A stretch of 64,000 nucleotides of DNA from Clytia hemisphaerica (Eukaryota > Cnidaria > Hydrozoa > Leptothecata > Clytiidae). Under the pieces are notes generated by a model. The model was not told the DNA's origin. It was given only the letters and a program-made list of their open reading frames with translations, and made no database searches. A program made the translations under genes and the position numbers. Of the stretch, positions 5,501-62,773 are shown one piece after another (within the stretch, counting starts at the first letter, position 1; every line of letters starts with the position of its first letter). The stretch spans positions 336,822 to 400,821 of the forward strand of contig CACVBU010000262.1 of NCBI GenBank assembly GCA_902728285.1. The letters are read 5' to 3'.

Positions 5501-8500
5501 AGGAAGAAAGGTATGTACGTTTGACGTTTTCGTCTTATTAAAATTAAGGTTTTTAGAAGAAAATTGCTATTTGAAAGACTTTAGCTGGAAAACTGTTTGT
5601 CCTATATTTAACCTTTTTGTTTATGGAGTCTTTTGTTTCTGAAGAGGCAACGTGTAAAGATATGGAGGTTTGAAGTCAAAAGATAAGAAATAGGGCCATG
5701 CCCTTTGGACCAAAACAATGGATACTATTTAGGGGAGAATAGAATGAAAAAGAAATTTGCCATAGACCAGTGGCATATGGTTGACAGAATATATTTTTGT
5801 TATTTCATAACATTGATACAATAAAAGGCCAATCCTACGTGGATAAAACCTTGTAAATCCGTCTCCTGCAGTTTACAAAGGTTTCATGAATCCTTATTTC
5901 CTTTTTCTTTTTTGTTCACACAGTGCTATGGTTCCATAGAAGAAGCCTTGAACAACAAAGCTCCCATAATCCTTGTCCATTCTGGTACTTATGAAGAAAG
6001 TGTGGAAGTTAACCACCAAGTCACGATCATCGGAACTGGTAAAGAAGAAAACACCACCATTTATTATTCATTGTGTTATTTTGAAGTACCGAACCCCCTT
6101 TTGTTTTCATTTTCAATCTTTTTTCAGTGGTTTTAACTGTATCAGACTACAGTTGTTCCAGACCTATTAAACTTTTATCAGCCTAATCTACGTAAGCCTT
6201 TTTCAATAGATATGGTTGCCAATTTGAATTCCCTTTATGCTTTCTAGTCCAATTTTAGTTTGACCTAGGACCCCCTCTAAAACGTGTCTTTTTCTCTTAA
6301 TCTAATCAGATTGAACTTTTGTTCATTATTAACTCCATGCCTTAAATCTTCTCGTTTAAAGGTATCCCTGGAACTCCCTCCGAAACATGCATCACAAATA
6401 CATCCAAAACGATTTTCCGTTTCGGACCTCAAGCTGCAAAAAGCATCATAGCTTTCCTCTCCATTTCAATTCTCCGCGATGAAGCGAGTTCTTCTGTTGG
6501 GTATTGTCTTGATGTTGGACAGGACAGTTCACCTATCATTCAGAATTGTCACATTACATCCAAAAGCACTTGTAAGTTCTTTTAATAGGGAAATCTGTAA
6601 TTATGATTAAGTACAGAGATTTACTTTCATCAGTTTCTTAAATTTAAGGAAAAACTCGGAATCTTTTGGGTAAAATGAATGAGGAAGACTTCTTTGAAAA
6701 ACAAAGTACTTTAATCAGTAAAATTCCCAATAGATTTTTCTTTTGAACAATTGATTAGGAATCTCGTCTTTTGTCAACAGGTAATTCTTTTTTAGACTTA
6801 GCACTTTCCTTATCTTCCACAAGAAAGCGCTTTTCATTTTTCTGGTTTGAACTTTCCATCAAAATAAGTCATAAATATTTGCTTTATGCTAATGAAAGGT
6901 CTACAAAAAGTCCTTTTGCAAACTGGTTCGTAGATTAGTTCTAGATTATTTTCCCATTGAGCTTTATTCAACAGAAACCTCACTTTTTCCTCTCATGAAA
7001 AAAGTTTATAGATCAAAGTCTGATTGGAACCCTATTCTTCTTTTCAAACCCCTTTTTTCGTATTTGCCCTTTGAAGTGGGCCAGGGTTAAAATAAGTTAA
7101 GTAAGATGGCTCGTTTGTTTAACCAATCATGAATTTATCATAAGACCATGTCTATACATTTTATTATATAGTATAAAAACACTTACAGAATAACTTTTAT
7201 TGTTAAACGAGTACTGAAGGTAAAGAGGCACCAAGAAATATTTGACCCAATGAAAATGTCAAGATGTCAAGATAATCAGATTAACGTCTTTAGATTTTTG
7301 CCAAAAAAAAAATTTTTAACTTGATTTTTCTTGGAGACAGGCTTTTATTAAATAACTGACTTCTTTTCGTTTAACTCTAGGCGTAGCAGCTGTTCATGTG
7401 CATGGTCCTGGAAGTTCACCCAAAGTTGTCCGTTGTAAAATCTCTGAATGCAACAATGTTGGTCTTTATATTCATGATGGAGCACAAGGTGTCTTCGAAG
7501 ACAATGAGATTTCGTCCAATCGCTTGGCAGGTGTTTGGGTAAAGACACAAGCCAACCCTATTATGAAACGTAATGAAATTTGCCATGGCAAAGATGCTGG
7601 TTTCTTCATCTTTGACGGGGGAATGGTAAGTGATATTTATTATAATTTTTCTAAATCAATGGATGATAGATTATCCCTCGACAATCATTTTATACCCTGT
7701 TTTGATATTTTTTTTGCTGCAATGCTTTATTCCTTTTACTTTGAGGCTTTTTAAAAATCGAAATCCTTAACCAGGAGGCGACACACAACCCATAATCCTT
7801 TTAACCTCTCATAACTTGAGTCTAAAGATTTAACAAAATTCTATTAATCTTGATGTCAGACCGCAGTAAAAAAAGTGCCTCAGAAAGATTGTCTGGAAAC
7901 ATAATCCTTGAACGACCGGCTCCCCTCACTCCTACGAGCGAGAGATTTTTTTTTTTACTCCAATCCCTGGTAATGTGATTCTTGTGTAATGTTCAAAATA
8001 AGTCGTTTCCCTATGAAAGGAAGTGTCTGATGTTAATTATATCAAAGCAGAGAACCAGGTCCATCAAGTCTGATTGTTTTTCATTCCAATTTTTCCCATC
8101 AGGGATACTACGAAGAAAACAATGTCCACAGTAATCGCATCGCTGGAATCGAGGTCCGGTCTGAAGCCAACCCGACCGTAGTTCGGTGCCATATTCATCA
8201 CGGGTTTACCGGTGGTATTTATGTACACGACAGCGGGCGTGGTGAATTTCTTTGCAATCAAATTCATTCTAACACTTTCGCTGGTGTATGGGTGACGTCT
8301 GGTAGTAACCCAACTATCAAGTAAGTTTTCCACAGATTATCTTCCTTTCTGTACCAAAGAAACTTATTTATTTTATTTGTGTATGTGTTTTTTGTTTCTG
8401 ATTAATATCTTGATTTCTGAATCAAAACCTTTTCGTTCAAATTTATGCCAAGAGCCTCAACTATATTCAGTTTTAAATCTACGTAACTCTTCATCTTGTT

Positions 8501-10986
8501 TTTCTTTCTTTCCATAGAGACAACAATATTTACCATGGTGAACAAGGCGGTATTTACGTTTTCGGAGAAGGTCGAGGTCTCATTGAGAACAACGATATCT
8601 ATGGTAATGCATTAGCCGGGATACAAATCCGATCCAATAGTAACCCGATCGTACGCAAAAATCGGATTCACCACGGTAAACATGGCGGTATATACATCCA
8701 CGAATGCGGAATGGGCCTGATTGAGGATAATGAGATCTACGGAAACACTCTTGCTGGTATCTGGATTACAACCGGAAGTGCACCCATATTGAGATTGAAT
8801 CGTATCCATAGCGGTAAACAAGTTGGCGTGTATTTCTACGACAAAGGATGCGGAACATTAGAGAATAACGAAATTTACAATCACAAATACTCTGGCATCC
8901 AAATTAGGTAAGATAATGTCTTGTTTTAAAGCATTTTTTTCTTTCAGCTTGGAATATTTGTTTTGTAGCTTTGCACTGAGGTGATTGAAATAAGCCAAAG
9001 CTTACTCTGTCAACACAAATGTGGTAAGATATAACTAAACCAAAATAAAAATTAATCATAACCAATTATGCATTTCGTTTCTCATTCTAGGAGTGGCAGC
9101 AGCCCTGTGATTCGTAAAAACAAGATCTGGGGCGGTAAAAATGGTGGCGTTTTAATCTACAATGGCGGTCTCGGTATCTTAGAAGATAACGAAATTTTCG
9201 ATAACGCGATGGCAGGAGTTTGGATTAAAACAGAGTCCAACCCAATCCTTCGTAGAAACAAAATCCACGACGGTCACGAGGGAGGTATTTGTATATTCAA
9301 CAACGGGAAAGGATTATTAGAGGACAATGATATTTTCCGTAATGCTCTCACTGGTGTTTTGATCAGCTCACAAAGTTTTCCCGTGTTGAGACGGAATCGT
9401 ATCTTCCAAGGAGGAGCGGCTGGTATTGAGATCACCAACGGAGCTGGAGGTGTTTTGGAAAGGAACGAAATCTTCAACAATAAATTTGATGGGATTTGTT
9501 TAGCTACTGGTGTTGAACCAAAATTAATAGGTGAGCAGGAGTTTTTTTTCTTCATTTCCATATATTAAACTAATGAAAGTTTTAGCCATACCATATTTAT
9601 TTGTGAGGGATGATCAATCTAATGATTTATTTTAGCAAATCGTTCGCTCGGCAGGCATTAAAACTGATCAAAAAACTTGATTTGTCCTTTTACATGTTAC
9701 CTTACTAAATCTACAAAGATGAAGCAAGATTTGCGTATTGTTTACTTTCCTTCTGTTTATGTTTATATCTACCGTTTTTGTTTCTTTGTTTAGATAACAA
9801 TTGCCATGACAACAAAGAAGAACTTTCAGAAGCGATCGAAGAAGGAAAATGCCTGTATCAAGTTTCTGGGAATGCTTGTTACCCCATGCATGATTTCTAT
9901 AAGTAAGGCCTTTGAGTGTTCTCCAGCTCTTTAACTTAAGGGAACATATTTTGACAAATTAGCTCTCGTCAAACTTAAATGATTGTTGCCTCGCAGAATT
10001 TTTTTTCTTGCGTTTTTCCCCCTTCGAAAAGTTAGTTCCCTTAAGGTAATTTTAAATCCGAAACACGCAGAAGTATCCCGAACACCAATTACAATATCTA
10101 AATGACTTAAATTTTAATGTCGATTCCATTTCTTTTCCAGATGTGTGACTTGCTCATCGACTGAAAATTTGGCAATTTGTGTGAATTGTATCAAGAAATG
10201 TCATCAAGGCCACGAAGTGCAGTTCGTGAGACACGATAGGTGAGTAGACAAAGCACTCCATGACAGTCCCCCCCCCCGCATCCATTATCATCTGATCAAC
10301 TTACGTTACTCTCTGGAGTGGCGCGTTCCTCTACATTTATTTGACTAGATAGCTAATGAAAAGGCAGCCTTCGGATCGCCGTCGACTGCGGTCGCAAACT
10401 TACTTACGTTATTAACGATTTGAGCATCAATTGGCCTTTTTTGAAGACATTTAATTTGAAATTGGACGACGTTATTACTACAAACTAAACCTTCCAAATT
10501 AGTTCGGGGGAAATCTTTCGACCACTCAGACATACCCCACCTGAAAGTTCTATTGTGAAGTTCCCTGAGTTTAAGCCCCCCAAAAATAACACTCTCCTTT
10601 GTTCTTTTAGATTCTTTTGTGATTGTGGTGCAGGTACAACTCCCAATTGTTGTCAACTCGTCCCCTCGTCCCAATCCCCTACCCGTGACGTCACTAACAA
10701 CAACAACACCCAACAACATCAAAACAAAAACAACAATAATACAACGAACAATTCGAATAGAAAACGAAAATCGGCAACTTCGAGTCGAACTCGAACTACA
10801 CGCACACTTAAACGCAATAAAGTCGCTTCTACGACAACTTCCAATACATCCACGAACAGTGCTTCAGCGTCAAACAATTCGAGTACGTCAACTCGCTCTA
10901 AAACACGCAATCAACGTCGTAACGCGTCACAACTCGACAATGAGAATCAACAACTCGAACAATCTCTTTCAGTAGAAGGAAATTAA
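2557..10986 (+). CDS. FBXO11: FBXO11-like F-box / beta-helix / UBR zinc-finger protein (13 exons)
   Basis: Coding exons: 2557-2634, 2921-2978, 4914-5121, 5309-5510, 5924-6038, 6362-6571, 7381-7625, 8103-8320, 8518-8907, 9091-9530, 9794-9902, 10141-10239, 10611-10986. All junctions are GT-AG and all phases close (2,748 nt, 915 residues; human FBXO11 is of similar length). An F-box lies at about residues 73-115 ([10 protein letters not shown], then LACTCKR). A long run of right-handed beta-helix repeats follows (about 160-740; recurring G-x-L-E-D-N-E-I-x-x-N phrases, [20 protein letters not shown]). A UBR-type Cys/His cluster covers about 752-800 ([26 protein letters not shown]). The tail is Asn/Thr/Ser-rich with basic patches and is probably disordered. 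Family role: substrate receptor of SCF (CUL1) ubiquitin ligases. The start is uncertain: ATG 2536 is in frame seven codons upstream, after a possible acceptor at 2527. The SCF role is from the family; the domains are seen. Confidence 0.93.
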
Positions 10987-13968: not shown

Positions 13969-14500
13969 TCAAAATTACAAGGCGACTTCAAAAACATGTT
14001 TCGAAGGCGGTAATAAAAGAGTACAATAATAATTAATCATTTAAATCACTCGGGAGATAAAAGATTATTTTTCACCAAAGTTTGCTTTTGTTAAAGTCCA
14101 TTCACGTGCTATTAAACCATAGTAAAATCGAATAAAATTTACCATTAGATTTTAATATTTTCTCCACGTACTCCCTCAAGTCGCCGTCCTAGTTGCTTAA
14201 GGTCCCTATTGAATGAGGACGGCGTCACAGCTTGTCAAAATTACAAGGCGACTTCAAAAACATGTTTCGAAGGCGGTAATAAAAGAGTACAATAATAATT
14301 AATCATTTAAATCACTCGGGAGATAAAAGATTATTTTTCACCAAAGTTTGCTTTTGTTAAAGTCCATTCACGTGCTATTAAACCATAGTAAAATCGAATA
14401 AAATTTACCATTAGATTTTAATATTTTCTCCACGTACTCCCTCAAGTCGCCGTCCTAGTTGCTTAAGGTCCCTATTGAATGAGGACGGCGTCACAGCTTG
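13969..14500. repeat. Perfect 266-bp tandem duplication
   Basis: The segment beginning TCAAAATTACAAGGCGACTT at 13969 recurs from 14235, and both copies end GTCACAGCTTG. I found no difference between them by eye. Each unit contains a small hairpin, CGCCGTCCT pairing with AGGACGGCG. The identity suggests a very recent duplication or an assembly artefact. Confidence 0.9.
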
Positions 14501-14882
14501 TTAATTTCTCAATCTGAAATACTAACTGCCGACTCCTGGACGGACCCGATCAGGATCAGGATCAGCATCTCTAGAAAAAATATCATTAAAGACTTCCGAT
14601 CCAATTGATATTTAGCCCTTTGCTGTATACCATTCTTAATGGCAATGACGAATGAGACAGGGGTATGGTATATCTTTCAAACAAACTTAGATATCGATCT
14701 GCTCATAGTTAAAAGGCGGTCCTTACCTTAATTTCACCATTACAAAAAAGCTAGTAACAGTCATACACGGTGTTTAAAAGAGCCCGATAAATAATACAAA
14801 TTCTCCCAATCGTCTGGCTGCCTGTGGTTAATCAGTATTGTAAAAGATAATCAGCGATAAAAACGAAATTGGACGGAATATA

Positions 14883-16026: not shown

Positions 16027-16488
16027 TTAACCATTCATCACTTGATCAACGAATTGCTCAATATTAATCATTCCATTTTTATCTTCCAATCCTTGACATA
16101 ATAAGTCCATTTGAGCAGGCGTCATGGCTTCACCCAATGACGTCATAACATGATGTAATTCACCAGCCGAAATGGTACCATTTTGTTCGCGATCGAACAC
16201 ACGAAAACATTCCAAAAAGTCTGTTTTATTTTTCTTGTTTCGATCGTTTCCGCCGCGCGATGCAAGTGATTGATATATCGGTAAAAATTCTTCGAAGCTG
16301 ATTCTTCTGGAGCCTGCAGAATCTAACTCTTTGACGATTTTTTGGACATCACTTTCTGTTGGGTTTAAACCAAGACCACGAAGAGCTTCTCCCAAAAGAC
16401 TGATTTCAATTTTGGCGTCGCCACAAGTATCGTAAAGGCCAAATGATTCTTCCAAGATGTCTCGTTCTCTTTGTGTCATGGAATCCAT
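16027..16488 (-). CDS. Myosin essential light chain-like EF-hand protein
   Basis: A single coding exon of 153 residues, the usual size of non-muscle/smooth essential light chains (MYL6 type). The chosen start gives [20 protein letters not shown]; the open frame extends upstream, but a plausible acceptor (minus-strand AAAATAG, exon from 16520) marks that part as intron and 5' UTR. Four EF-hand-like helix-loop-helix units are degenerate for calcium binding, as is usual in this family. Diagnostic stretches are [12 protein letters not shown] (hand 1), [12 protein letters not shown] (hand 2), [20 protein letters not shown] (hand 3) and a final hand with [19 protein letters not shown]. By family, it wraps the first IQ motif of a myosin heavy chain neck. 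Calmodulin is excluded by the degenerate loops and overall match. Confidence 0.85.
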
Positions 16489-17530
16489 CTTGTTCAATTT
16501 TATAATTTGAAAACTTTCGCCTATTTTAAAATAAAAAGCGAGAAAAGTTATCAAATCTTCTCCTGCAATCAAAACATATCAAAACAGAAAGTAAAATGTA
16601 AAATCATCAAATATAAAACGAATTTTATAACAGAAGAGAAAAGCATACATAAATCTCTATGATGATATTTTCTTCAAATATAAGAACTGTTCACATTTAA
16701 CCTTCAAAACACAGAACACAGGCAGATGTTTTGTAAAGTTATTACGTTTCTCTATACCTGTGTCGATTCAGTGTTGAAAAATACTTCATTGAATAATAAA
16801 TGGCTTTACATACAACTCTCAAAACGTTAAAAGGTCTCTCGCGAGAATTCAATATAAAAAAAATCAATAGAACATTCAACAGCTTCAAAAGATTATACAT
16901 CGGATCAGGAGGAAATCTTTGATTAAAACTACCCCTTTTGAAAAAGCTTGTATTGTCTATCGTTATTATAAGATGATTTGAAGGTACATCATCAACTTTT
17001 GATTTTAAAAGAATTTCTTATATGACGAAAAAAATGTTAATTAAAATGTAGAAATTAAAGCTATGAGAGAAATAGAAAAGCAATTCCAATTTATAATGCA
17101 ATATAATTATTCCCAATTATTGCTTATTATAAACTTTGATCATTTTACTCTCTACTACATTGTCAATCAAGATGTCTTGATTGGCCTTTTGTTACACACA
17201 AGAATGTTGAACAGTTAAAAACTATATAGCGAAAAACGTGAAAAATCCAAGTTTCAATCACATTTCAATCAAAACGCCCTTTCGTCGTTCACCATTTTGA
17301 AATTTTCATTTTCATTTTTTCTTCTTCATTTAAATCAAGGCATTTAACAGTGGTAGTTCTATAGAAGAGGAAAGATCTCGGATGGTATAAACGGAACATT
17401 TTTCGTAAATAAATAAAAAAGTATATCCCTAAGATTCTAAGCAAAGAAATCAATACAAAACTACTTACCCTCTCTTCTCTGAATTTTCTTTCAAAACTTC
17501 TTCACTTTGGTGGAGAATTTATGAAAACAA
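16489..17530 (-). promoter_or_regulatory. Candidate 5' UTR intron and leader exon of the light-chain gene
   Basis: Reading the minus strand, a strong donor (AGAGAGG followed by GTAAGTAG) ends a possible leader exon at 17469, and the acceptor TTTTAAAATAG precedes 16520. This would join a non-coding exon (about 17530-17469) to the coding exon. No promoter element was identified with confidence. This is inference from splice-site sequences only. Confidence 0.3.
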
Positions 17531-28472: not shown

Positions 28473-29471
28473 ATGGCTTCTGGTGAAAGTGTAAATACTT
28501 CTGAATTTTATGCGCAACAAGCAAAGACTACTGATGATGCTGCTTCAATAGCATTTGTTGTTGGAAAGAATAAATATCCCTTAGATGAATGGTTGAAAAG
28601 GAACAAGCCTTCAAATGTCCGTAGGTAAGGTTGGCCTTCAAAATTTATCATGGCCTGTTCACTTACAATATGCAAACAGAAAAATGTTGAAAACAATCTT
28701 ACTAATCAAGTCAAGTACTTCTTAAGATGAAAATTAGATACATAATATAAAGGATGTATAAATAATGTTTTTCAACTGACTAACCATGGCCTGAACCTAG
28801 TGCAAGATGACAGAAAACCAATATTTTAAGACATGTTTTTCTTACTTGTCCGACTTATGATTCAGTCTTATCTATCAGTTCAAATATCTTCAAATTTATC
28901 AAGCAATCCTTATTTTTATAGTTTGCATTTTTTTAGGGATCAAGGATTTGGCTGGATCTGGGTGTTACGTCCAGAAGATGACAATAATGACAATAATGAA
29001 GATTTTGACCCAGATAAAATGATGGATGAATGGCAGAAAGTAAATGCTTCTGAAAGCATTAACATCACTAAAGAATATGTTTTTGAACTAGCACGCAAAC
29101 ATAAATGTACATCAGGAAAATGGTTAGTAACAACCAGACCTGGTATAGAAACTGACCGACTGTGGGCTATCATTGCAAAAGGAATTGTTAATGGGGAAAC
29201 ATTGGCTAGGCATGCTAAAGTGAGTGCACATGAGGGACCAGATATTAGACATGTTTTCTGTATTTATAATGATAACTTTTTAGATAAAGATCAAGTTATG
29301 GAGAATGAAAGAACAATTAGGGAATTAGGAATCAAACGTGCTTTGACATACAAACCAGATGTTTACACATATTTAGGTATTTATCGAAAGAATCGCTGGA
29401 AGATTCGACCAACCATTTATACAAGCAATTGGGACATTTTGAAGAAAGGAACAATTATCAAAGAGACATAA
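28473..29471 (+). CDS. BLES03 / C11orf68 (UPF0696) family protein, two exons
   Basis: Exons 28473-28624 and 28937-29471 join in phase (AG|G, Arg) to give 228 residues. The start ATG (MASGESVNTSEFYAQQ) has an in-frame TGA six bases upstream. Exon 1 supplies YPLDEWLKRNKPSNVR; exon 2 opens DQGFGWIWVLRPE. The central block CTSGKWLVTTRP, TDRLWAIIAKGIVNGETLA and AKVSAHEG is the signature of the Bles03/DUF1917 family, whose fold resembles the cap-binding protein eIF4E. Cellular function is not established. An acidic Asp/Asn run (residues about 61-72) interrupts the N-terminal half. A polyadenylation-like AATAAA lies at 29483-29488. The family is inferred from these motifs. Confidence 0.82.
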
Positions 29472-30144: not shown

Positions 30145-30604
30145 CTTCGTTGAAAAAACAAGCTATTTTGTGTTACCTTAATTCTTTTTTAGATTTTGTT
30201 TTGAATTTTTCTACCTAAAGTGCTGTGACTTAGGGTCATTGGCTTTATGTGGAAGTTTTAAGTAGTGGTGGGATCTCATTTTTTTGGTGGGACCTGGAAT
30301 CCCCTTCTACACTATGAACGTTGAGCTAGATTGTGCTCTTGTTGAAAAGTTAGATTTTATGGTTATTTTATAAATTATTTCTTCATGTTATAGAAATTAA
30401 AAAAAAAAACAGATCTGTAATTTGTTATGAAAACATATTGAAACTAATGTAGCGATGTTTATTCGGGTCGGCTCTCCTCAGGCTTGTGTAATCAGTAATA
30501 TAAAATCGGAACTTTTTAAGTTCCTTAGAGTTTCTGACATGCAATAAATAAAACTCTTTTCCTTTTTAAGAAAAGAATAATACAAAAAATACTAAAGTAA
30601 AATA

Positions 30605-31015
30605 ATGTCTGGTATTGCAAATTGGATACGTCACCAGCAATATGTTTTAAAGCATGTTGGTGGCTACCAGAATGCATTTCGAAGATTGTTACGCGAAGGC
30701 AATGTCAGGACAGGAGAATTGATCGGTGAAGATAAATATGGTAATAAATATTTTGAAAACAAAACCTATTTCATGGGTAGAAGTCGATATGTGGAATTTC
30801 CTTATGAAGGGAGACTGGAATTTGATGGATCTCAGGTTCCACCTGAGTGGCACCGATGGATGCATAACATGACAGATGAACCACCAAGTACCCATCCACC
30901 AACACCCAGAAAATTTATTATTGATCATAAAAAGAACATGTCAGGTACCAAAGATGAATATGTACCATATTCTACTACTCGACCAAAAGTTGAATTCTGG
31001 AAACCTGCCAATTAA
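30605..31015 (+). CDS. NDUFA12: NDUFA12, accessory subunit of mitochondrial complex I
   Basis: A single-exon gene of 136 residues, close to the usual 140-145. The family core is clear: LIGEDKYGNKYFENKTYF (about 40-57), GRSRYVEFPYE, VPPEWHRWMHNMTDEPPS (about 79-96) and the C-terminal EYVPYSTTRPKVEFW. By family, it is a matrix-side supernumerary subunit of NADH:ubiquinone oxidoreductase, on the peripheral arm near the N module. The start is the first Met (MSGIANWIRHQQYVLKH) after an A-rich leader with stops. The lack of introns is notable beside intron-rich neighbours, but the frame is intact. A candidate AATAAA is at 31548-31553. Confidence 0.95.
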   Translation: MSGIANWIRHQQYVLKHVGGYQNAFRRLLREGNVRTGELIGEDKYGNKYFENKTYFMGRSRYVEFPYEGRLEFDGSQVPPEWHRWMHNMTDEPPSTHPPTPRKFIIDHKKNMSGTKDEYVPYSTTRPKVEFWKPAN

Positions 31016-40439: not shown

Positions 40440-43400
40440 ATGGATGACTCAGAGGAGAAGGAGAAAAGTGATGATGTCAGCGATAATATAGTGAAAGATT
40501 TGGCGCACCATCAAACACATCGGCTCTCCATCACAATGTGTATTTTGGTTGTTTTCTCTTACGTCATTGGTTATCTCCAAATGACCTTTCTTATCCCCAT
40601 CATATTGTGTTTGTATGCTGTGTGGATATGGAAGCTGAAAACTACGGAGATAAACGATTGGTTTTATAATGAACATGAGATGCGGGAACACCGGAGGAGA
40701 GCTTTGGAGCATGCTGAAACGGTGGAGTGGCTCAACTTCTTATTGAATCGATGGTAAGATAATGCAGGGGCCGCGGCAGCGGGGGGGGCACCCGGGCCTT
40801 GGCCCGACCACATTTTTTCAAAGCAAAAAGAAAATTTACTGATTCAGCTAAATTCTGCGTAAAAACCTTGAAAAAGACCTGTTTTAGGCAGTCTAGAAGG
40901 GCTAATTTTCAAAAAATTCTCCCCCGTCGGCCCCAACCATGGTGGCACCTCCTTAGACTCTAAACCATGGCCTCTGTCTGTGCACTACATTGGCTTTGTA
41001 TCGCAATCGCTGCTCTCGACCTAAGATCTAAATCTACTTTCATCTCGCCAATCTCTTTATTCAAAAACAGGTGTTTTTGGGGGCAAACAAAGAAATCGAC
41101 AGGAATATCGCTTAACGGTCTATGTTCAGTGTTTCATATCGTATTTCTTGTTTCTCGAACAGGTGGTTTTTCAGTGATCGGACAATTCACGATGTTTTGA
41201 AGAAATCCATTGATCCTATTCTTGAATCTTGTAAGCCGAAAATGATTGGTAAGTATTTTGCAGTGCTTCCTCTTCGGGTCTGTGCGAACCTTTTTTTATC
41301 ACTTGGAAAGAACCGCGAATTGTATTTCAAATATTTCTTTTCAAAATTTAGAAAGTATCGAACTGGAGAAATTCACCCTTGGCAACCGGACACCTTACCT
41401 CAAATATTTCCGGGTGTATGATTTAACGGAAGACCAGCGCAAAATGATGGCAACTGAGGTCATTTACCGCAACCCTCCCGTTGATTTACCTATCCGGCCG
41501 AAATACCAGATAGCAATCGATGCGGATTTTGGGTTGGATTCTCCAGAAGCTCAATTGATTATTCGGATGAAAATGTCCTCAAAATTGTAAGGAGTTTTTA
41601 GAAGTCTTTTCTTATACGTGTTATCACAATAAAAATTGAGCATTCCAAGAAGGCCCAGGAACCTGAAACTGAAACTGAGGATTAAGAATTGCTCAGAACC
41701 ATTCATATATAGATAGAATTTTACGGTCATTTTCTTGGTTTGGACGTAGGATTGGTTTCAAGTTATCTAAACAACAACTACCTAGTAAACTCAAAGTAAA
41801 TATTCTCCAGCCTGTAATTAAATCAGTTTTAGCTAAACCAAATTTCCTACCACGTGCTTCCACTCACTTTTATTCATTTTTCTTTCAGGGGTTTTTCAGA
41901 CGTGGTCGTGGATAAATTCAAGATACGTGGACGAATTCAACTGATCTTGCATTTCAACCAAAACATTCCTTTTCCTCATCTTGCTGCTTTCTCATTCTGC
42001 TTCCTGCAAGAGTAAGATATGAATTTGATTGGTCTGTTGTCTATAGAGTATATTTCAAGTCTGAAAGCGTACCTTATCGGCCAAAGTTTAGTCGGCCTTA
42101 ATTTTAGTCGGCCTTAATTATTAGTCGGCCCTAATTATCAGTCGGTCCTAATTTTGGTCACCTCGTCAAATTTAGTCACTAAAGGCCGACTAATAATTAA
42201 GACTGACTAAAAATTTGGGCCATTTCTAAATTTACAAGCACATGTAAAATAGACACTTTTTAATGATAATTCACAGATTTTTAATACTTATTATGGATAT
42301 ACTTCAAAAACAAGTATTTAATCAATAATTACGAACAGGTCATTTTTTGGTGGAAGTATAAACCATGAAATTATTAAAACCTTTATAAACTTAATTCGAA
42401 AATTCTTTGTTAAAGTAATACCGATATGAAAGTGGGTTATAGAAAGTTTATATTATAAACTTTTAATTTGGCCCAAATTTTTAGTCGGCCCAAATTTTAG
42501 TCGGCCCTAATTTTAGTCACCAAGCCAAAATTTAGTCACTTAGGGCCGACTAAATTTTGGCCAATAAGGTACTTGAAAAAAGAAAGACTTTCACCGGACA
42601 ATAAATTGTGTCAAGAAAATTGAAACTTAACTCTGAACGTTGTAATTTTCATAAAGGAGAGGAATTCGGGACTAGTGTTTCTTTTGTTAAGTAATTTTTT
42701 TCGATAGATTCGAACGCTCCTTTTCATTGATGGAGCTTCAAAATTCATCTTTGTTTGAACAGTATGATCTAGTTGTCCGACTTAACGTTATTTTCGTTTT
42801 TCGTTTTAGACCAAAAGTGAATTTTGACATCCGCTTGTTGAAGAAGATTCAGTTAATGGAATTCCCGTTCATCAGAAACTGGATTTCGGAACTTGTCAAC
42901 GACTCTTTGAAAGTTTGTAAGATGATAGGCTGTTTTTCTCTTTCTCGAAATAGATCATAGTTTAAGAGATGACATTCTAACGTTTGTCTATATATTTGAA
43001 TTAGCTAAAATCATATCGGTTGGGTATGGTCGAATCAGATAGCTTTTCGAGAAAGGGTGGTACTGATTTTCGTCTCGAAAACCAGAATAGTAAATCACTC
43101 CTAAGTGGCCTTCGAATAAATTGAATTTCCCCTTCTTTATGCTTCAGCCATGGTTGATCCTGGCCACATCACGATTCCATTGTGCAACGATCCCGAACTT
43201 ATTGGACGTCAAACGGGCTATTGTAAGTACAGTTGACTAATTCGATCTTCAAGGGTTAAAAGTAGTTTCTTCAAATATGAAAAGGTTCGAATTAGAGAAG
43301 TTCGAATTAGAGAGAGAGTTGACTGTAATTCTCTCTGTTTGGATTCTCCTTTCGAACGGAAGATCCAAACGAACAAGACCCAAACGAAATGCGTTGCAGC

Positions 43401-46400
43401 TTTGGAGCCTCGATTGTTTCATAATGAATTCACTAAAATCTCGAAAGCCAATCGTGTGAAAATATTTCGCCGGTAGCTTTCCGAGGCAGGGACAAACTTA
43501 ATCTTTAGACGTGTTATTATTGTTTGGACCAGAGCATCTGTTAATGTTATTGTATGAATACTAACATGATGTGATTACGGATCGCAAACGCGATAACTGA
43601 CTGGTCCACCATTGCCATTCATCTCTTCTTTCTTTTTCGTACAGGTGAAGGTGTATTAACTGTTACCATCAAAGGTGGAGCCAAAGGAAAAGCCACTTGT
43701 GAGTAACCTTTTTGGACATCTTTGTTTGATTTTTGGATACTTTTTCCGAATTCAATCACATTGGATGTGAAGCAAGATTGGTCAGAAGGAGGAAAAGAAA
43801 AACATTTTTGCTTATATCAGCATAATATAACAATAGCAAGACACTGTCCTGGTATGAAATGGGAACACTTATGTAAAAATAAAACCTTTAACCAACTCAA
43901 TGAATGATTTTCTCATTATAGCTGACGAACAGTGGTGTTCGGTGACTTTGGACATAGTCATAATAAAGAGTTAGTCTGGAAGGACGGCCCGTATCGGGCC
44001 GTATTCTATTGTTTTCACGATAGAAACTCGATCCGCGTTTGTTTATCGTTCCCAGGCCATTTTTGAGTGCATCAGCCACTTTCGATTTCAAAAAAATAAA
44101 ATGTGGTGAGCAGTGTTGAGAGGTTGTAACCTTTTCAAAATGAAGAGAAAATATTATGCCTGGTGCAAATTGTTCCATATATGAATGCTCTACTAACAGA
44201 AATCATAAAGAACTTTCAAACTTTCGTGTTCCTACTGGAGATGATGAATTCTCTACAAAATGGAGAGACAAAATTGTGAACATTATTACTAAAGACAGAG
44301 TCATTGATGAAAAGCTTGGAAAGCAAATTAAGAATCGAACACTTCATACTTTTGAACTTCATTACAGAGAAGAAGACCTATTGAGGCATGAAACAAAAAC
44401 AACAAGGAAACCTGGTGCATTGCCAACTCTACGTTTACCATCCAAGTCACATCCAAAAGTTGAAGTGTCCCCAAGAAGTTCAAGTAGCATATCTAAACGA
44501 GAACTTGCAACAGCATCAGCCCCAACTGCACCACCCAATGCAAACCTTGACTGCTATACATCTTATGAAAACTTCACAACCCGTATTGAGAAATTAAAGT
44601 TGCCTGATTGGACAATCAAGAATAATGAGGCAGCTAGTGAAACGTCAATCTTGTTGCACGATTCCATACATTCAGTTCCAAAATTTGAGATCAGAGTGAA
44701 AGAAAATCTTGACTTTTTCATACTTGTTTTTAATTGGCTTGTGCCACAATCAAACACTGATATTGGCTATAGTTCTATGAAATCTACATATCTGAGCCCT
44801 CTGACACGCTCAATAGAACATTTGTTTGTTTGTCGTGGCGTCTCCTACTCTTCTGATGCTATTTTACGACACCCTGTGCCCAAGAAACTTTATGATGTAA
44901 ATGCTGGTCCCTTCCAGATGACAGAGTTTCTACGACCAAAAGACTGTCAAATTCTGAGTCAAAGTGACATTTGCAAAACCTGTTTATTGAAAACTAAGCA
45001 ACATGAAAGTTATGAGGAGAGGAAGAAAGCAAAATCACTGGAGCCGTTAAAACGAAATGCTCCCTTATCTTCAGCATCATCTTCTAGGTTAAAGGTTACA
45101 GTGCAAGGACTACGTATTGAAAATAAGGAATTAAAAACTGAAATTGAAAAGCTTCAAAAGGAACTAGCCAAAAAAATAGTCTCCCAGTAGATGATACTCT
45201 TGATAACGATTTAAAGTCAATTATGTCTCGTACAGATTCTCAGGAGATTTCACCTTTCATGAAATTTTTCTGGGAACAACAACAACAGTATATCAAGTGT
45301 TCACCATCAGGAGTCCGTTACCACCCTTCTATCATCAAATACTGTCTCAGTCTACATGCAAAGTCAGCATCTGCTTACAAAGACTTACGACATGACCCCA
45401 AAACAGGAACAGGTATCCTCGTCCTTCCAAGTGAACGTAGACTTCGCCATTATAAGAACTATATTCGACCACAACGTGGATTTAATAGTGTGAGATTATT
45501 GATGAGTTAAAAGGAAAGATTGCTAATTTTACTGATGATGAGAAATATATTTGCATTTTACTTGACGAGATGAAAATTCAAGAAAACCTTGTGTTTGACA
45601 AGCACTCTGGAGAGTTGATTGGTTATGTGGATTTGGGAGATATTGTATTGAATAGTGCATCTTTTGAGAACATAGAAACTATTGCTACTCACATCCTTGT
45701 TGTTATGGTGAGAGGAATAATCAACCCTATCAAATTTAGTTTTGCTACATTCGGCACAGATGGAGCAAATTCGAGTCAACTTTTTGCAATTTTCTGGAAA
45801 GCCACTGGCATCCTTGAGTTGAGTTGTAAATTGAAAGTCCTTGCTGTCACCTGTGATGGTGCGTCTTCTAACAGAAAGTTTTTCAGGATGCATGCCAAAC
45901 TTGAAGGATCGGAGGATAAGGATGTTACATATAAAACTAAAAACCGATTTAGTACTGACAACAGGTACAGGTACATCCATTTTATTTCAGATCCACCCCA
46001 CTTAATGAAAACTGCACGAAATTGTCTATCTAACTCAGGTGCAGGGAGAAATAGTAGATACATGTGGAATAATGGTAATATTCTTTGGTCTCATATTAGT
46101 GATGCTTTTTACAACGATCAGGAAAGTGGATTACACTATCTACCAAAGCTTACCACTGAGCATATCAAATTAACACCGTATTCTGTCATGAATGTAAAAC
46201 TCGCAACTCAAGTTCTGAGTCAAACTGTTGGTAATCATTTGAAAGAATATGTTCCTGAGGCAAAATCCACATCTGATTTTTGTTTGATGATGGATACATT
46301 TTTTGATATCATGAACATTAGAAACCCTGAAGAGGCCAAGAAAAAATTGAAGGAAAACAATAAGCCTATTTACAAATCAAACGATGGTCGTATTAAATGG

Positions 46401-49400
46401 TTGAAGGATCATTTTCTTGGTTATTTCAAAAAATGGCTTGAGTCTATTAATAATCGTGAAGGCAAGTTTGACAAAACTGCCAAAGCTAAAATGTTTATTT
46501 CTTGGCAAACCTACGAGGGACTGCAAATCACTGTGAAATCAGTTATTGATTGTGTTGAATATCTTTTGGATACTGTTAAGTGTAAATTTGTTCTTACTGA
46601 GCATTTTAACCAAGACCCACTTGAAAATTATTTTGGGAGGCAACGATCATTAGGCTCACGAAAGGAGAATCCATCTTTGTTTGATGCTGGTTATAATGAT
46701 AACAGTATAAGAAATCAGAATGTTTGTCGATCAATTGAAGGAGGAAATAGTGGTGGTGTTGATCATTCTTTTGTAGACATGTCTAATGAGCCCATGTTTA
46801 AGAAACAAAGGGTCACTGAGTAATATTACCTTTTTACTGTTTATGAATATCGTTGCATTGATATAGTATTTTTGTTATGATAATAACTTTAAATTATCCA
46901 AGTTTTTAGTTTTGTTTTGATTTGTGCGCCTATTTTTGTTTTTAAAAAAAGAATAGGCCTTGATAATCGCTTGAGCTCAGAAAATAAGAGGTAATATAAA
47001 AGCCGCTTAAATTATCTTCATTTGAAATAATTAAAGGTTATCTCCCTAGTTTGATGCGCAGTATAATATTGTCTGAAATGTCGTCTGGAGAAAATGAAAG
47101 TGTTTTGATTAAAGAGTTCTTTGAAAGGTTGTTATTCAAATCAGCTCAAAATAATTTAAATTTTTCAATTACATTAGAAACCGAAACACAAAACACCTTT
47201 TATTGAAACGAATTACTTTTTTATAAAGGAGCATTTCAAGTTAGCATTTTTTTATGCACCTTATTTCATTTAGGCTCAAACTCTCAAAACTCTGCGAATA
47301 TTATCTTGAAGTAAAGTCTTCAAAACACTTAGGGAAAAAAGAAAGTGACTGAGTAGTTTTCTGAGAGAACTTTTGAAGAAATAGTATTTTCTTACTTTTT
47401 AAGGAATTCAAACAATACCTTAATAAAAAAAAATAACAAAAGATAAGCAGTATATATGTACATTTAGAAAATAACACTTCTTTGATAATAAGCTAGATAA
47501 ATTATTCTATTTTTATATCACTCTATGAAATTCTTATTTATAAACGAAAAAGGAAATCAAAGTTAAGACAAACAGTTTATTTTTCTTGTTATTTATTGTT
47601 GAAATTTCTATATTTTTAGGTGTATACTTGTAAATTTTTGTTTTTTTTTAAATGTATAGTTGGATTTTGTTTGGTAATAAACAGTAGCACTAATATAATT
47701 TTGCTTCATACAAACTAATTTTTGGGCTTTGTACAGAAAACAGAATCTTTGAATAGTAAGGATTTTTTGTTCAAAGTCTGGGTATACAGTATTTTCAAGG
47801 TATGATAGGTTTCGCAAAGTTTTTGATTTTGTACTTTATTAAAAAAATTTTGGTGAGTGAGTAAAGTATTTAGTTTTGACGATAACTGGAAGTAAGAACT
47901 ATATTAGAGCTTATATTTTCCTAGTTTTTAATGAAAACCACCAAATTGTTCTCGTTCTCAATGCTATTTAATAGTGTTGTAGAGCTTGAAGTTTGGTGAC
48001 AGTGTCATTAAATTCGATAGGATTTTTTACAATATATAATGAGGTTGTGCGTCAAAGAGCAACTGTCATGGCCAGGGGTCGAACCTGGATCCTCTTATTA
48101 TTAAAATTTTGGACTAGAACATTAATCTACCATGACAAAGATAATCGATTGAAGTGTCATTAAATTCGATAGGATTTTTACATATATAATGAGGTTGTGC
48201 GTCAAAGAGCAACTGTCATGGCCAGGGGTCGAACCTGGATCCTCTTATTATTAAAATTTTGGACTAGAACATTAATCTACCATGACAAAGATAATCGATT
48301 GAAGTGTCATTAAATTCGATAGGATTTTTACAATATATAATGAGGTTGTGCGTCAAAGAGCAACTGTCATGGCCAGGGGTCGAACCTGGATCCTCTTATT
48401 ATTAAAATTTTGGACTAGAACATTAATCTACCATGACAAAGATAATCGATTGAAGTCTTGTAAATTTTTGGTTTTTAAATGTGTGATTTTGATGCATTCA
48501 AAATAAAATTTCAGACTGAAAAAAACAATTTGTATAAGCATTTTGAGAAAATCCGAAATTGTTTCCAATCGTGAACCATTAAAATTTAGTCTCTTACAGT
48601 TTTCATAAATAAACCAGTTATCTCGTTATACCTTAACTGTAAGCTGGGTATAGTATATAAAAAAACTTGACAAAGTTGGTTGTAAATTTTCTATGTTTGA
48701 CCTTCTTACACAGCTCGCTAATTTTAGTTAAACACATGTTTAACTTGTGCAGAAACAGACTGTTTTATATCAAAAGTGACCATAAAACCCCTCTTATCGC
48801 GATGAAAGTATGATGTTAATTTCAAATGCAAAAAAAGTTTCAAATGCATCACAACAAAAAAGACATAAGTGTAGAAAAAAATAGGTCTGCTGTGTTAGAA
48901 ATCAGGCTACAGGTGAAAAAATAACAAAACATTAGTGTCCATTATCCAAAGAAGAAGATTTTCTTTTGATTTCCCCTCTCAACGATTTTGATTTTGTCAC
49001 ATTTTTTGCCATTTTGTGAGACTGGACTTTGTCTTTTGCAAATGAATGTGATCTAATTCGTACGTAAAGTGTCAAAAGATCATCCAATAAGTTCATTGCA
49101 ATCTCCTTTTTTCACGGGAGTTTCAGCTTTATGCCGGATTGAATTAAAATTGGCAAGGAGGAAAGGGTTTGCCATTAACGACGATACAATATATTCAACA
49201 TTGATTCTTGTAACTTTCCGATCAGTTGTTGCAGACACAAAATATGATTCTGCAAGCATGAACACGTTGAAGATTGACCTGTTAACTTTCCACAAACCAC
49301 CTCTATTGTTAAGGTTAACAAGGCGATGATGATGTGATACATCGGTTTCTTGACCTTCTTGATATTTACAAGCTTTCAAAAATGCCAAATATTGTTCATC

Positions 49401-52400
49401 ATAGCGTCCTTTGATTCGTGGACGTTTGGAATAACATACTTTTCGGAAAACATTTCCAACTACAACGCCACTAAGGTTGAAAATAATTTCTCTGTCCTTT
49501 TGATCGAAATTTATCTTTTTATCTTCAAAAGTTATGTCGTCATCCACAATTTCTGAGTTGGCAAGGTACGACAAAACACCATTTGCCAACTCAAACATAA
49601 GTAGAGTGTTACCTGTGTCGTCCAGAAAGTCATAAATGACACAGGTTTCAAAATGTTCTATAAAGTTTGGGTAAAATTTTTCTGTATCTCCTTTGAACTT
49701 TTTAACAACATTGTTTAGGACATTATCATATAGTGATCTCGTGGATATGTATGTTATTTTATCATACTGAGTCTCAAATTGTTTTCGTGTTGTTTCTGGA
49801 TAGCATTTATCTATAGCCAGTCTTCGGAATATACCCCTGACGATCTTTATGAAAGAAGTGTCAGGTAGTAATTCACTTGGTGCAGAAAGTTGTTGAGCTG
49901 GTGGTTTCTGTTGCTTTTGTTTTGATGATGATGGTTTTGTTGATGCTGCTGGTTCAGTAGTCTGAGACGTCTCAGAATGCTGGTTCGTCATGTGCCTCTT
50001 CAAGCCACGTTGAGAGACACAAACCTTGCCACAGTGAAGACATTTTACTTTGTTGGTCTCAGGTGGTGTTTCTGGTACCTCAAAGTTAAGGAGAATAGCA
50101 TTCATTTCTTCATCGTCGAAGAAATTGTAGTCATCAGTGGCATCAGTACCTATGTCAGCACCTTCACTTTCCGCCATTTTGAAAATTCTATGCACCCTCT
50201 GTACGGCCGTCTATTTTGATAGAGTTAAAAACATACGGGCCGTCCTTCCAGACTAACTCTTTATTATGACTATGCTTTGGATAAACAGAAATTACGAACG
50301 AAAGAAATTTCCGCAGATGTGTTATGGCAAGAACAATTATCAATGATGGTCTACAGTGTACAGTATGATAAGGTTAGACAAATATTCTATCATTTCGTAG
50401 TGAATATAATGTAACAGGGTTCAAAGTCGGTGAAAGGAATCCTCGTTGCTCTATAACTGCTGTCTAACCGGTTCGTTCATCATCGGCGGGTTCATCCTCT
50501 TACTTCATTTTAATTGGGACTATACAATAAGAGCAAAGAACACTTTTGAGTTTGTTGGAATAAATTGTTGTGAAAATTTGAAGGGCTAAGCGGAATTTAA
50601 ACAATTATTAGAATGGACTTCAAAAACTTTTCTCACTTTTTTTCTTTATAGCTTCGTATCAAGATCAAAGGCAAGCGTCGTTTTGGCCCCAACTACACTG
50701 TGGTAGAATATATTTTACCCTTGATCAGGCTCAATCTCGAACAAGACAATGAACAGTAAGCAAAACAACAAACATTCTTCTTTTGGATCACAGTTTTGAG
50801 TATTTCAGTGTTAGGTTTGATTTTTAATGCGAGAGTTGACCTCCTGCTTATGGGATGGAGTGCCCTAACCTGCATTTGTCTGACCAGGAAAACATCGTAA
50901 TAATAGCCCTCCGCCACTTATCGGAATAATTCGGGAGACGTTGCCCCCAGAAGACGTACACCGTCCACTGCTCATAACATATCGAACGTAGCGTGATCGG
51001 AATTAAACTTCCAAGTTTTCCAGGCAGGACGGATAAGATAATACAAGCAGCCTTAACTGATATCTGCAGAAATTTCAAACTAAATACTTTACTACTACGA
51101 TTACCTTTACCAGCAGGGAAGCGACCTAACAGCTACGTCGGATTTATGTCGCAAATAAGTCGGTCGGCGACCAACATTCAGATCATATTCAGACATTACG
51201 ATTCCGTTTCACTCAGAAACGAAATGAAGTCATTCTATTGGTTAAGTTTTACGTCACTTCTAACCAATAAAATGGCTTATATTTCCGTTTCAGAGCAAAA
51301 CGGGACCGTCAAGTGTGAACATGGTCTCAAACAACGTGAATTCAACAAAAATACAACGTTTTACGACCGTGATATAAACATAAACCTGGAAGTTAATGAA
51401 TGAAATGTTGTTCATCTCAAGCAGATCTAGATGAACTTTAGATTTTCAAAAAATTACTTTCTCGACCCATTCACAATTTGTTTGTTTTTCTTTATTTCAG
51501 AATTAAGAAACGCCACTTTAAAGTATTGTAAGTTCTATTAAACTTAAATTCAACTTTAAATTAAAACATCACATTTAACCACTTAAACTGCACAGTACGG
51601 TAAAGTTAAACGGTAATAATTAATTATTAAACCACATAAACCAAACGAGCCTAAAATAATACGATTTTAAATGTTACAATAAACTTGTTAGGTAAAATGA
51701 TATCAGAAGAAATTAGATTTTTGGTAGATTGGAGTTTTTATTTATCGTACAGGGCTTGAAATAATGGTCCGACTCAAATTACTTCTTATCCGGCCCAAAA
51801 ATCATAATATCATAAGAAAGATCGGATATTTTGTCCGACCCTCTTGAATCGCTATTTAATTTAAGCCATGGTTGTACGTACAATTCATCATGTATTTCTT
51901 CATCCTTTTCCAGGCAAATGGAACTACAAGATGACAATATCGAGGGGTCATTACTTCAAGTGCAATTAAACTACAGTTCGTTACCCGTCATTGATGCATC
52001 CAGTGAACACGACCAAGAAGCTTTCCAAACAAACTTCGTTGATAAATATTACGATGAACCACCCACCGATGGTAAAGAAATCTTTTCCAGATAATACTCG
52101 GTTCTACTACTGTTTTCCAGACTCTCCCTACACTAATCCTAATCGATATCCAATCGATTGATTGGAGTCAACCGATGGATAACCGGTCAATCGATAGCCA
52201 GTAGAATTTCCCTTTAAATCCTGATTATCGATTTTCTATCGATTATCGGAATCAATCGATATATAATCCCTCAGTTGGTTATCGATTGGTTATCGATTGA
52301 AAAAAGTCATCGATTGCATGGAGTGGGAGAGTCTGGTGTTGCGTTTTTACTACCCGAAGAATCAAGTTTGACTGATACTGAACGTTTCATAAGTTTCACT

Positions 52401-55400
52401 TTCTTCACTTCAAGGTTTTACCGTCACACTGATACAGGAGTGTTATAAAGTCTTTTACCCTGTAAAGCTAAGGCTAAGCTATTTTTTTCCAGGTGGCATT
52501 ACAGGCGCATAAAATTGTTGCAGTCTCCCCCCCCCCAGTGAAAAAAAATGAGAAATGAAAGGAACATTTGAATGTCCAACGATAGTTGATTGCATCGTAG
52601 CCGTCTGGAAGAAACATCAGTGAAGCCATAGTTATAAGATGTATATAGTGAAAGAAACGCCAACTTTTCTGTCTTCATTTCAGTGACTGGTGTATTGTTC
52701 GTGTGTATCCACAACGGAACGAATTTGATTCCAATGGACAGCAGTGGAACATCTGACCCTTATGTCATGATATTCGCTAATAAAGAATTGGTAGGTTTGA
52801 CTGGTTGAAATAGCTAGGAATTGTTAAAAATTCTGATCATTTGAAATAACATTTTTTTGAAGACCTGGTAGTATCACTCGGTGCTTGTCATCAGAAATTT
52901 CTGTAAGATATACTTACCATTTATTGTTTTTGTTAGGCATGGGATAGCTCCATATATTTTTCACCAACTTTTCATTTTCATTTTCAGGTACAAATGGGTC
53001 ACGTAGTCGAGGAAACATTAAACCCACAGTGGGATACAAAAGTGGAATTTTTCACCATGGATTATACACAGGTATGTTTCCTCCATTTTCTTGTTACTTA
53101 TTGGTTCTTTATTTTTTTTAATTTCGCTTAGCGAAAGTATTACGATAGCCTTTCTGCGGCGGCGGGGGAGAATTTTTTTGGGGCGAAGATTATGGCGTTG
53201 GCGTTTGACCCGGGCGTTCTCTGGTTAGTTGGTTCGGTATACTATGGAGATAATCATAAGTCGCGTTTTTTTTGCTCGAATATTAATTCCACAAATTTAA
53301 GCATATAACTGTTTGTTTTTTTATTTATTTTCTTATAAGCATATACTTTATAAGAATCAAATCAATAACTCTTGATAGAAGGTGATATACCTTTCGGTAA
53401 TTAGTCCTTACTAAGTTAACAAAGGATGGCGAACAATATGAGCATATTTATTTTTCTTATAAACATATACTTTATAAGAATCAACTCAATAACTCTTGAT
53501 AGACGGTGATATACCTTTCGGTAATTAGTTCTTACAAAGTAAACAAGGAACAGCAAACAATATGAGCATATTTATTTTTCTTATAAGCATATACTTTATA
53601 AGAATCAACTCAATAACTCATGATAGACGGTGATATATCTTTCGGTAATTACTTATTACAAAGTAAACAAAGGATGGCGAACAATATGAGCATATTTATT
53701 TTTCTTATAAGCATATACTTTATAAGAATCAACTCAATAACTCATGATAGACGGTGATATATCTTTCGGTAATTACTTATTACAAAGTAAACAAAGGATG
53801 GCGAACAATATGAGCATATTTATTTTTCTTATAAGCATATACTTTATAAGAATCAACTCAATAACTCTTGATAGACGGTGATATACCTTTCGGTAATTAG
53901 TTCTTACAAAGTAAACAAGGGATGTCGAAAAATATGAGCATATTTATTTTTCTTATAAGCATATACTTTATAAGAATCAACTCAATAACTCTTGATAGAC
54001 GGTGATATACCTTTCGGTAATTAGTTCTTACAAAGTAAACAAGGGATGGCGAAAAATATGAGCATATTTATTTTTCTTATAAGCATATACTTTATAAGAA
54101 TCAACTCAATAACTCATGATAGACGGTGATATATCTTTCGGTAATTACTTATTACAAAGTAAACAAAGGATGGCGAACAATATGAGCATATTTATTTTTC
54201 TTATAAGCATATACTTTATAAGAATCAACTCAATAACTCTTGATAGACGGTGATGATATACCTTTCGGTAATTAGTTCTTACAAGTAAAAACAGGGACAG
54301 CAAACAATATGAGCATATTTATTTTTCTTATAAGCATATACTTTATAAGAATCAACTCAATAACTCATGATAGACGGTGATATATCTTTCGGTAATTAGT
54401 TCTTACAAAGTAAACAAGGGATGGCGAACAATATGAGCATATTTATTTTTCTTATAAGCATATACTTTATAAGAATCAACTCAATAACTCATGATAGACG
54501 GTGATATATCTTTCGGTAATTAGTTCTTACAAAGTAAACAAGGGATGGCGAACAATATGAGCATATTTATTTTCTTATAGCATATACTTTATAAGAATCA
54601 ACTCAATAACTCATGATAACGGGTGATATCTTTCGGTAATTAGTTCTTACAAAGTAAACAAGGGATGGCGAACAATATGAGCATATTTATTTTTCTTATA
54701 AGCATATACTTTATAGAATGAACTCAATAACTCTTGATTGACGGTGACATACCTTTCGGTAATTAGTTTTTACTAAGTAAACAAGGGACGGCGCACAATG
54801 TGAGCATATTTATTTTTTATAAGCATATACTTTGTAAGAGTTCTTAAAAATTAAACAGCAATTGTTCTTAAATTGGTCTTATTTTTTTAGTGATTTTAAG
54901 TCTCCTTGTTCTTGTAAAATTGTTTCATCAAGGCTCGATGTAAAGTAGATTTCAGATTAGTTTTAATCTCTACTTCTTCTTTTTCCCATGCAGTTTAAAT
55001 TCTAGGCGAAATTTTCGACTTCAAGTCGTCTTGTTAATATTTTTATCATATTTTTCATTAATTGAATCTACTTATTCTTGTTTGTGAGAGGCCTGAATTG
55101 AAGACGTTAGGATTGTTTGTGAGAGGCCTGAATTGAAGACGTTAGGATTGTGATACTAAATAAACCTAAACCTTTAAACCTGCAAAATTGAACAATTTTT
55201 CCCCCTACTTTTAGACGACACTCTCGTTCGTGGTGATGGATAGAAATCCGATGGTTTTACCGAACGTTCTCCTGGCCGATGACAATGACGATTTCATGGG
55301 ATCTTGTAACATGAAACTTACAAAGGTATCTGATCACTGACCTTCTTGCTTGTGTATAGCTCTCTATTCTTGCTCTGAAACTGATCCTTTTGTAAAACCA

Positions 55401-62699: not shown

Positions 62700-62703
62700 C
62701 GCT

Positions 62704-62756
<53 letters not shown>

Positions 62757-62773
62757 AATTGCGCCACGGAAGC
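62700..62773 (-). tRNA. tRNA-Asn (anticodon GTT)
   Basis: 74 nt on the minus strand. Acceptor GCTTCCG pairs with CGGGAGC (one G-T pair), discriminator G. The D arm has GGCGCAATTGGTTAGCGC (A box). The anticodon arm TTCGG-CTGTTAA-CCGAA gives anticodon GTT. The T arm contains GGTTCAAGCCC (B box). It closely follows the animal tRNA-Asn consensus. A T5 pol III terminator lies directly downstream (A5 at 62695-62699 on +). No intron and no encoded CCA. Confidence 0.95.

Follow-up and report, generated by a model that had tools for sequence, protein, structure and literature searches.

An apparent P-superfamily transposon insertion in exon 8 of a putative SMP-C2 membrane-tether gene of Clytia hemisphaerica

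The window, i.e., the whole 64-kb stretch of DNA that was analysed, contains a forward-strand host gene encoding an SMP domain followed by C2 domains. The eighth exon of this gene is split by an element with perfect terminal inverted repeats (TIRs), a target-site duplication (TSD), a transposase region, a second gene on the opposite strand and a tandem array of tRNA-like units. The features of the locus are as follows.

40440-60824, forward strand: host SMP-C2 gene, a 27-exon model of 1,063 codons with the insertion flanks joined
43922-43952, forward strand: left part of host exon 8, 31 nt
43946-43952, no strand: left copy of the TSD, CTTTGGA
43953-50274, forward strand: whole P-superfamily element, 6,322 bp
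43953-43994, forward strand: left TIR, 42 bp, 100% complementary to the right arm
44144-45190, forward strand: transposase open stretch 1, assigned to the transposase from 44156 on, with a THAP-like domain and a coiled coil, ending in a stop
45148-45510, forward strand: transposase open stretch 2, in another frame, with an HTH domain
45489-46823, forward strand: transposase open stretch 3, in the third frame, with an RNase H domain and its GTP-binding insertion
48001-48456, reverse strand: tandem array of three units, 152, 150 and 154 nt long, with no substitutions among them
48064-48136, reverse strand: tRNA-like sequence 1 (Rfam tRNA)
48214-48286, reverse strand: tRNA-like sequence 2 (Rfam tRNA)
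48365-48437, reverse strand: tRNA-like sequence 3 (Rfam tRNA)
49080-50177, reverse strand: second gene, a C2H2/BED zinc finger followed by a helical region without a known family; a further open frame to about 48950 may hold its true end
50233-50274, reverse strand: right TIR, 42 bp
50275-50281, no strand: right copy of the TSD, CTTTGGA
50282-50372, forward strand: right part of host exon 8, 91 nt

The two TIR arms are complementary at 42 of 42 positions, and the two TSD copies are identical at 7 of 7. The left flank ends in ...GTGACTTTGGA and the right flank begins with CTTTGGATAAACAG; because of these flank letters, the TSD is 7 bp in full and a duplication of 8 bp is impossible. Among the other inverted pairs of the region, the next longest (best 25 of 40 pairs) spanned 15-28 nt and had a complementarity of 71-93%. 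Chance does not explain an inverted repeat that is perfect over 42 bp and bordered exactly by a 7-bp direct repeat within one exon. A preliminary description of this DNA had already given the element length, the perfect inverted repeats and the CTTTGGA duplication, and its coordinates proved correct to the base. Within the 64-kb window, the search for further copies of the element returned a single 38-bp match (84%) at 10698-10735.

When the flanks were joined at one CTTTGGA copy, exon 8 came to 31 + 91 = 122 nt with AG/GT borders, an open stretch whose phase fits those of exons 7 and 9, as previously described. The joined host frame runs through 1,063 codons in 27 exons with no stop and with GT-AG at each model junction, in a model that is biased towards an intact gene by the choice of GT-AG splice sites that keep the frame open. 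As assembled, the frame runs into the element, reads ...VTLDIVIIKS and then stops, giving a product of 348 residues, about one third of the protein. This end of the frame, DIVIIKS and a stop after 348 residues, had been read correctly before, whereas the full length then given, 1,051 residues, is replaced by 1,063 residues in the present model. The earlier wording of the exon, GATGAACAGTGG, was in error, and the actual exon reads GACGAACAGTGG.

A Pfam search using the host protein revealed an SMP domain (residues 93-298) followed by three C2 stretches. The SMP domain passed the cut-off of the MUG190-like model PF25669 (38.0 bits, cut-off 35) and stayed under that of the SMP_LBD model PF17047 of the extended-synaptotagmin (E-Syt) type (20.7 bits, cut-off 27), and a PDB search revealed a weak match of the host protein with the E-Syt2 structure 4p42 (E 5e-4). 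The gene had been called extended-synaptotagmin-like; its reading as an SMP-C2 tether held up, but the E-Syt identity is less well backed. Like the extended synaptotagmins and the MUG190-like proteins, both of them SMP-C2 tethers, the host has an SMP domain and then three C2 matches; its SMP domain, however, exceeds the cut-off of the MUG190-like model alone, so that the original label appears right only in the broad sense. The joined exons 7-9 gave a Pfam C2 score of 22.5 bits (cut-off 22); with the halves of exon 8 taken apart, the part before the insertion had no C2 match and the part after it reached 17.3 bits. The score exceeds the cut-off only with the whole exon, in agreement with the earlier placement of exon 8 within a C2 domain, to which these values lend modest support. 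The predicted 348-residue product would retain the SMP domain and, as read from the sequence, an N-terminal hydrophobic segment, but none of the C2 domains. Elsewhere in the host gene, a satellite of 12.3 copies of a 124-bp unit occupies 53322-54839 within the intron that separates exons 12 and 13, and short GC-rich tandem repeats of the TTAGTCGGCCC type lie in an intron at 42088-42153 and 42470-42518.

In the transposase region of the element, the RNase H_N domain (PF21787) scored 92 bits (cut-off 24.6, E 5.2e-26) and the GTP-binding domain (PF21788) 66 bits (cut-off 24.8, E 5.2e-18). Three of the five Pfam domains stayed below their curated cut-offs, namely THAP (PF05485, 20.4 bits, cut-off 23.9, E 0.00091), the Tnp_P_element HTH (16.7 bits, cut-off 23, E 0.0097) and RNase H_C (PF21789, 14 bits, cut-off 24, E 0.05). 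Stretch 3 matched the Drosophila P transposase structure 6p5a in a phmmer search (E 4e-12), and the catalytic D, D, D(2)H and E motifs follow in it in the expected order as LLDEM, TCDGAS, SDPPH and DPLENYFG. The alignment with 6p5a covers the D(2)H and E regions, while the first D is found only in a sub-threshold piece and the second D lies outside. The third zinc ligand of the THAP-like domain is apparently a Phe (LHTFELHY, a motif read by eye), and phmmer with this region revealed no THAP chain up to E 1. According to PMC7776569, P transposases have the domain order THAP, coiled coil, HTH and RNase H with a GTP-binding insertion, and THAP domains are restricted to animals; the domain order of the present element is the one expected from that account. 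Target duplications of 7-8 bp are given for the P superfamily in PMC10983969, PMC4168063 and PMC7776569. Judged from its sequence, the element is a member of the P superfamily, with the RNase H fold and its GTP-binding insertion, the catalytic motifs, the TIRs and a 7-bp TSD all present. The proposal of a P-like transposon is well upheld by the two domains far above cut-off and the 6p5a match.

An autonomous copy would have a single uninterrupted transposase frame, and we found three stretches in three frames. With two changes of frame, this copy can apparently not provide a transposase of its own, unless the changes reflect introns or assembly errors. Drosophila P elements carry 11-bp internal inverted repeats; here one 11-mer is shared in inverted orientation within the subterminal 300 bp, and 44 of 2000 Markov controls did equally well. 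The element contains five occurrences of ACGGCC/GGCCGT, none of them farther than about 75 bp from an end.

The element is 6.3 kb long and carries a second gene on the opposite strand, in which it departs from the Drosophila P element; the latter is not known to have such a gene. The two are alike in transposase homology (6p5a, E 4e-12) and in domain order (PMC7776569). The same source gives a 31-bp TIR and an 8-bp TSD for the Drosophila P element, unlike the 42 and 7 bp found here, so the present element is not a Drosophila P element in the narrow sense. Galileo, a P-superfamily element of Drosophila, usually makes 7-bp target duplications like the one found here (PMC4168063), but its TIRs are long and internally repetitive (PMC3573991), unlike the 42-bp arms described above. 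Zebrafish Pdre2, which is THAP9-related, resembles the present element in that the ends of both elements start with CATA (CATACCTGTCAAC in Pdre2, CATAGTCATAAT here), and differs from it in its 13-bp TIR and 8-bp TSD as against 42 and 7 bp (PMC10983969).

The second gene lies on the minus strand, and its start is some 100 bp inward of the element's right end. Its finger matched zf-BED with 21.2 bits (cut-off 20.6). A PDB search with the zinc-finger protein returned only weak zinc-finger matches (best E 0.088), and its predicted fold had a mean pLDDT of 32.1, with 365 of 365 residues below 50. Past the stop of this gene, the open frame reads LYVRIRSHSFAKDK. Similar motifs presumably occur in proteins predicted for cnidarians and for further invertebrates. 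We therefore suspect a third frame change near 49107, where the zinc-finger gene, close to its end, probably shifts to another frame.

Both transposase frame changes go one way and the suspected zinc-finger change goes the opposite way; at two of these three sites (45170 and 49107), a run of at least six identical bases is present or adjacent. From a reading of the sequence, programmed -1 frameshifting was considered as an explanation and rejected because of the opposed directions and the homopolymer runs at two of the three sites; decay or assembly error is the simpler account. Runs of at least six identical bases number four in the transposase region, two in the zinc-finger region and zero in host exons 1-25 (3,037 nt). 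The clean host frame is therefore no fair control for homopolymer errors, since its first 25 exons hold no such run.

The three units of about 150 bp differ by single-base length changes only, with zero substitutions in all three pairwise comparisons. Each contains on the minus strand an identical 73-nt sequence that matched the Rfam tRNA model with 32.1 bits (gathering threshold 29; E 0.0085 for the window), and the three copies, being one amplified unit, were counted as one match. Folding of two of the three identical copies yielded a four-armed junction with a perfect acceptor stem and T arm (z -2.52; 1 of 200 shuffles did equally well). The anticodon arm is poor, with no proper anticodon stem, and there is an internal TTTT, which is expected to stop Pol III. 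ARAGORN, run on the window, made no call at these units and called only a tRNA-Asn elsewhere. Given the missing ARAGORN call, the lack of a proper anticodon stem and the internal TTTT, a functional tRNA gene was rejected, and we take the units as a tRNA-derived or tRNA-mimicking repeat.

The earlier account of the element was right about the insertion and missed the frame breaks in the genes of the element, the zinc-finger gene on its opposite strand and the array of tRNA-like units. One speculative reading, which we hold only tentatively and consider rather unlikely, is a two-gene lineage of the P superfamily in which the transposase and a conserved zinc-finger partner (a regulator or co-factor of transposition) are transcribed convergently from the two identical ends and the amplified tRNA-like units between the genes separate the transcripts as a Pol III promoter, boundary or terminator. 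Among the titles returned by our literature searches, none describes a P element that carries tRNA-like units or an additional gene on the opposite strand, a weak absence. We also searched collections that hold few or no animal genomes: transposase stretch 3 gave no pattern match in IMG/VR and 14 pattern matches with none confirmed in GTDB genomes, and the transposase stretch had no match in plasmids; the zinc-finger gene gave two pattern matches in IMG/VR, none confirmed, and no match in phages.

The insertion had been called very young, and so probably heterozygous or strain-specific, on the ground that its ends are identical. This is a weak argument, since identity over the 49 sites of the TIR and TSD allows up to about 6% divergence (95%). 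Such identity is by itself compatible with the view that the insertion is old and fixed, or that the host gene had become a pseudogene before it; yet the 1,063 codons are open across 27 exons with GT-AG at each model junction and the insertion is the sole lesion, which makes this view improbable. Over 3,189 coding nt, the host gene has no stop, frameshift or lost splice site, which bounds the divergence since its loss of function at about 0.39-0.76% under a neutral model, with indel-to-substitution ratios of 0.2 to 0.05, no selection and the modelled splice sites taken as given. The lesion-free host frame bounds the age better than the identical ends, although the bound would be weaker, because of recombination, if the allele has been kept beside intact ones. 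A recent, segregating insertion seems the likeliest reading.

It could also be supposed that the element is spliced out like an intron and that the gene still works. In a scan of donors at 43922-44199 and acceptors at 49900-50379, at least ten cryptic donor/acceptor pairs near the element ends would keep the frame open; the best of them, however, scored only 3.0 (donor) and 1.5 (acceptor), against at least 5.1 for 24 modelled donors and at least 6.8 for 24 modelled acceptors, values flattered by matrices trained on those same sites. A donor of 7.7 at 44105 sits past the in-frame stop. Skipping of exon 8 would drop 122 nt and shift the frame, and joining exon 7 to the acceptors at 50005 or 50122 would keep the phase by length with scores of only 2.6 and 2.0. 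Splicing-out of the element is unlikely from the predicted site scores, and we give a still-working gene very little weight. That a transposon read was misjoined into the exon during assembly is hardly credible. Single-base length differences among otherwise identical units and frame changes at or beside homopolymers suggest that the repeat was imperfectly polished, but a misjoin would not yield an exact 7-bp target duplication at two perfect ends.

We are thus highly confident that a P-superfamily cut-and-paste transposon inserted in exon 8 of a gene for an SMP-C2 membrane tether and thereby created the 7-bp target duplication. In the proposed course, the element would have been pasted into exon 8, probably recently, by a transposase supplied in trans, as the two frame changes here suggest, unless these breaks are assembly errors. 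Transcripts of the allele would then be destroyed as premature-stop messages or would yield the 348-residue protein, which would keep its N-terminal membrane segment and SMP domain, lose the C2 domains and so could not tether membranes; the disrupted allele probably coexists with an intact one.

The kind of event is ordinary, and the example is clear and recent-looking: a base-perfect record of an exon disruption by a P-superfamily element, in which the empty site can be read by eye. If intact copies exist elsewhere in the genome, elements of this family could still be moving, and the truncated tether would represent a loss-of-function allele of natural origin. How P-type elements outside flies are built is a testable question raised by the zinc-finger gene and the tRNA-like array, and these two features deserve to be followed further.

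Several other features were observed in the window. The stretch 4700-9568 encodes an F-box domain followed by right-handed beta-helix stretches (Pfam), which we take to be a protein of the FBXO10/FBXO11 type. An EF-hand protein (Pfam), without introns in the stretch and centrin-like by eye, lies on the minus strand at 16027-16578. Matches to Bles03 and NDUFA12 were found in the open stretches 28830-29471 and 30596-31015, respectively. Together with the THAP-bearing transposon, neighbours such as these two and the F-box/beta-helix protein speak for an animal as the likely host. A tRNA-Asn (GTT) at 62700-62773 on the minus strand was called by both ARAGORN and Rfam, and a perfect 266-bp tandem duplication, with two copies 100% identical, occupies 13969-14501.
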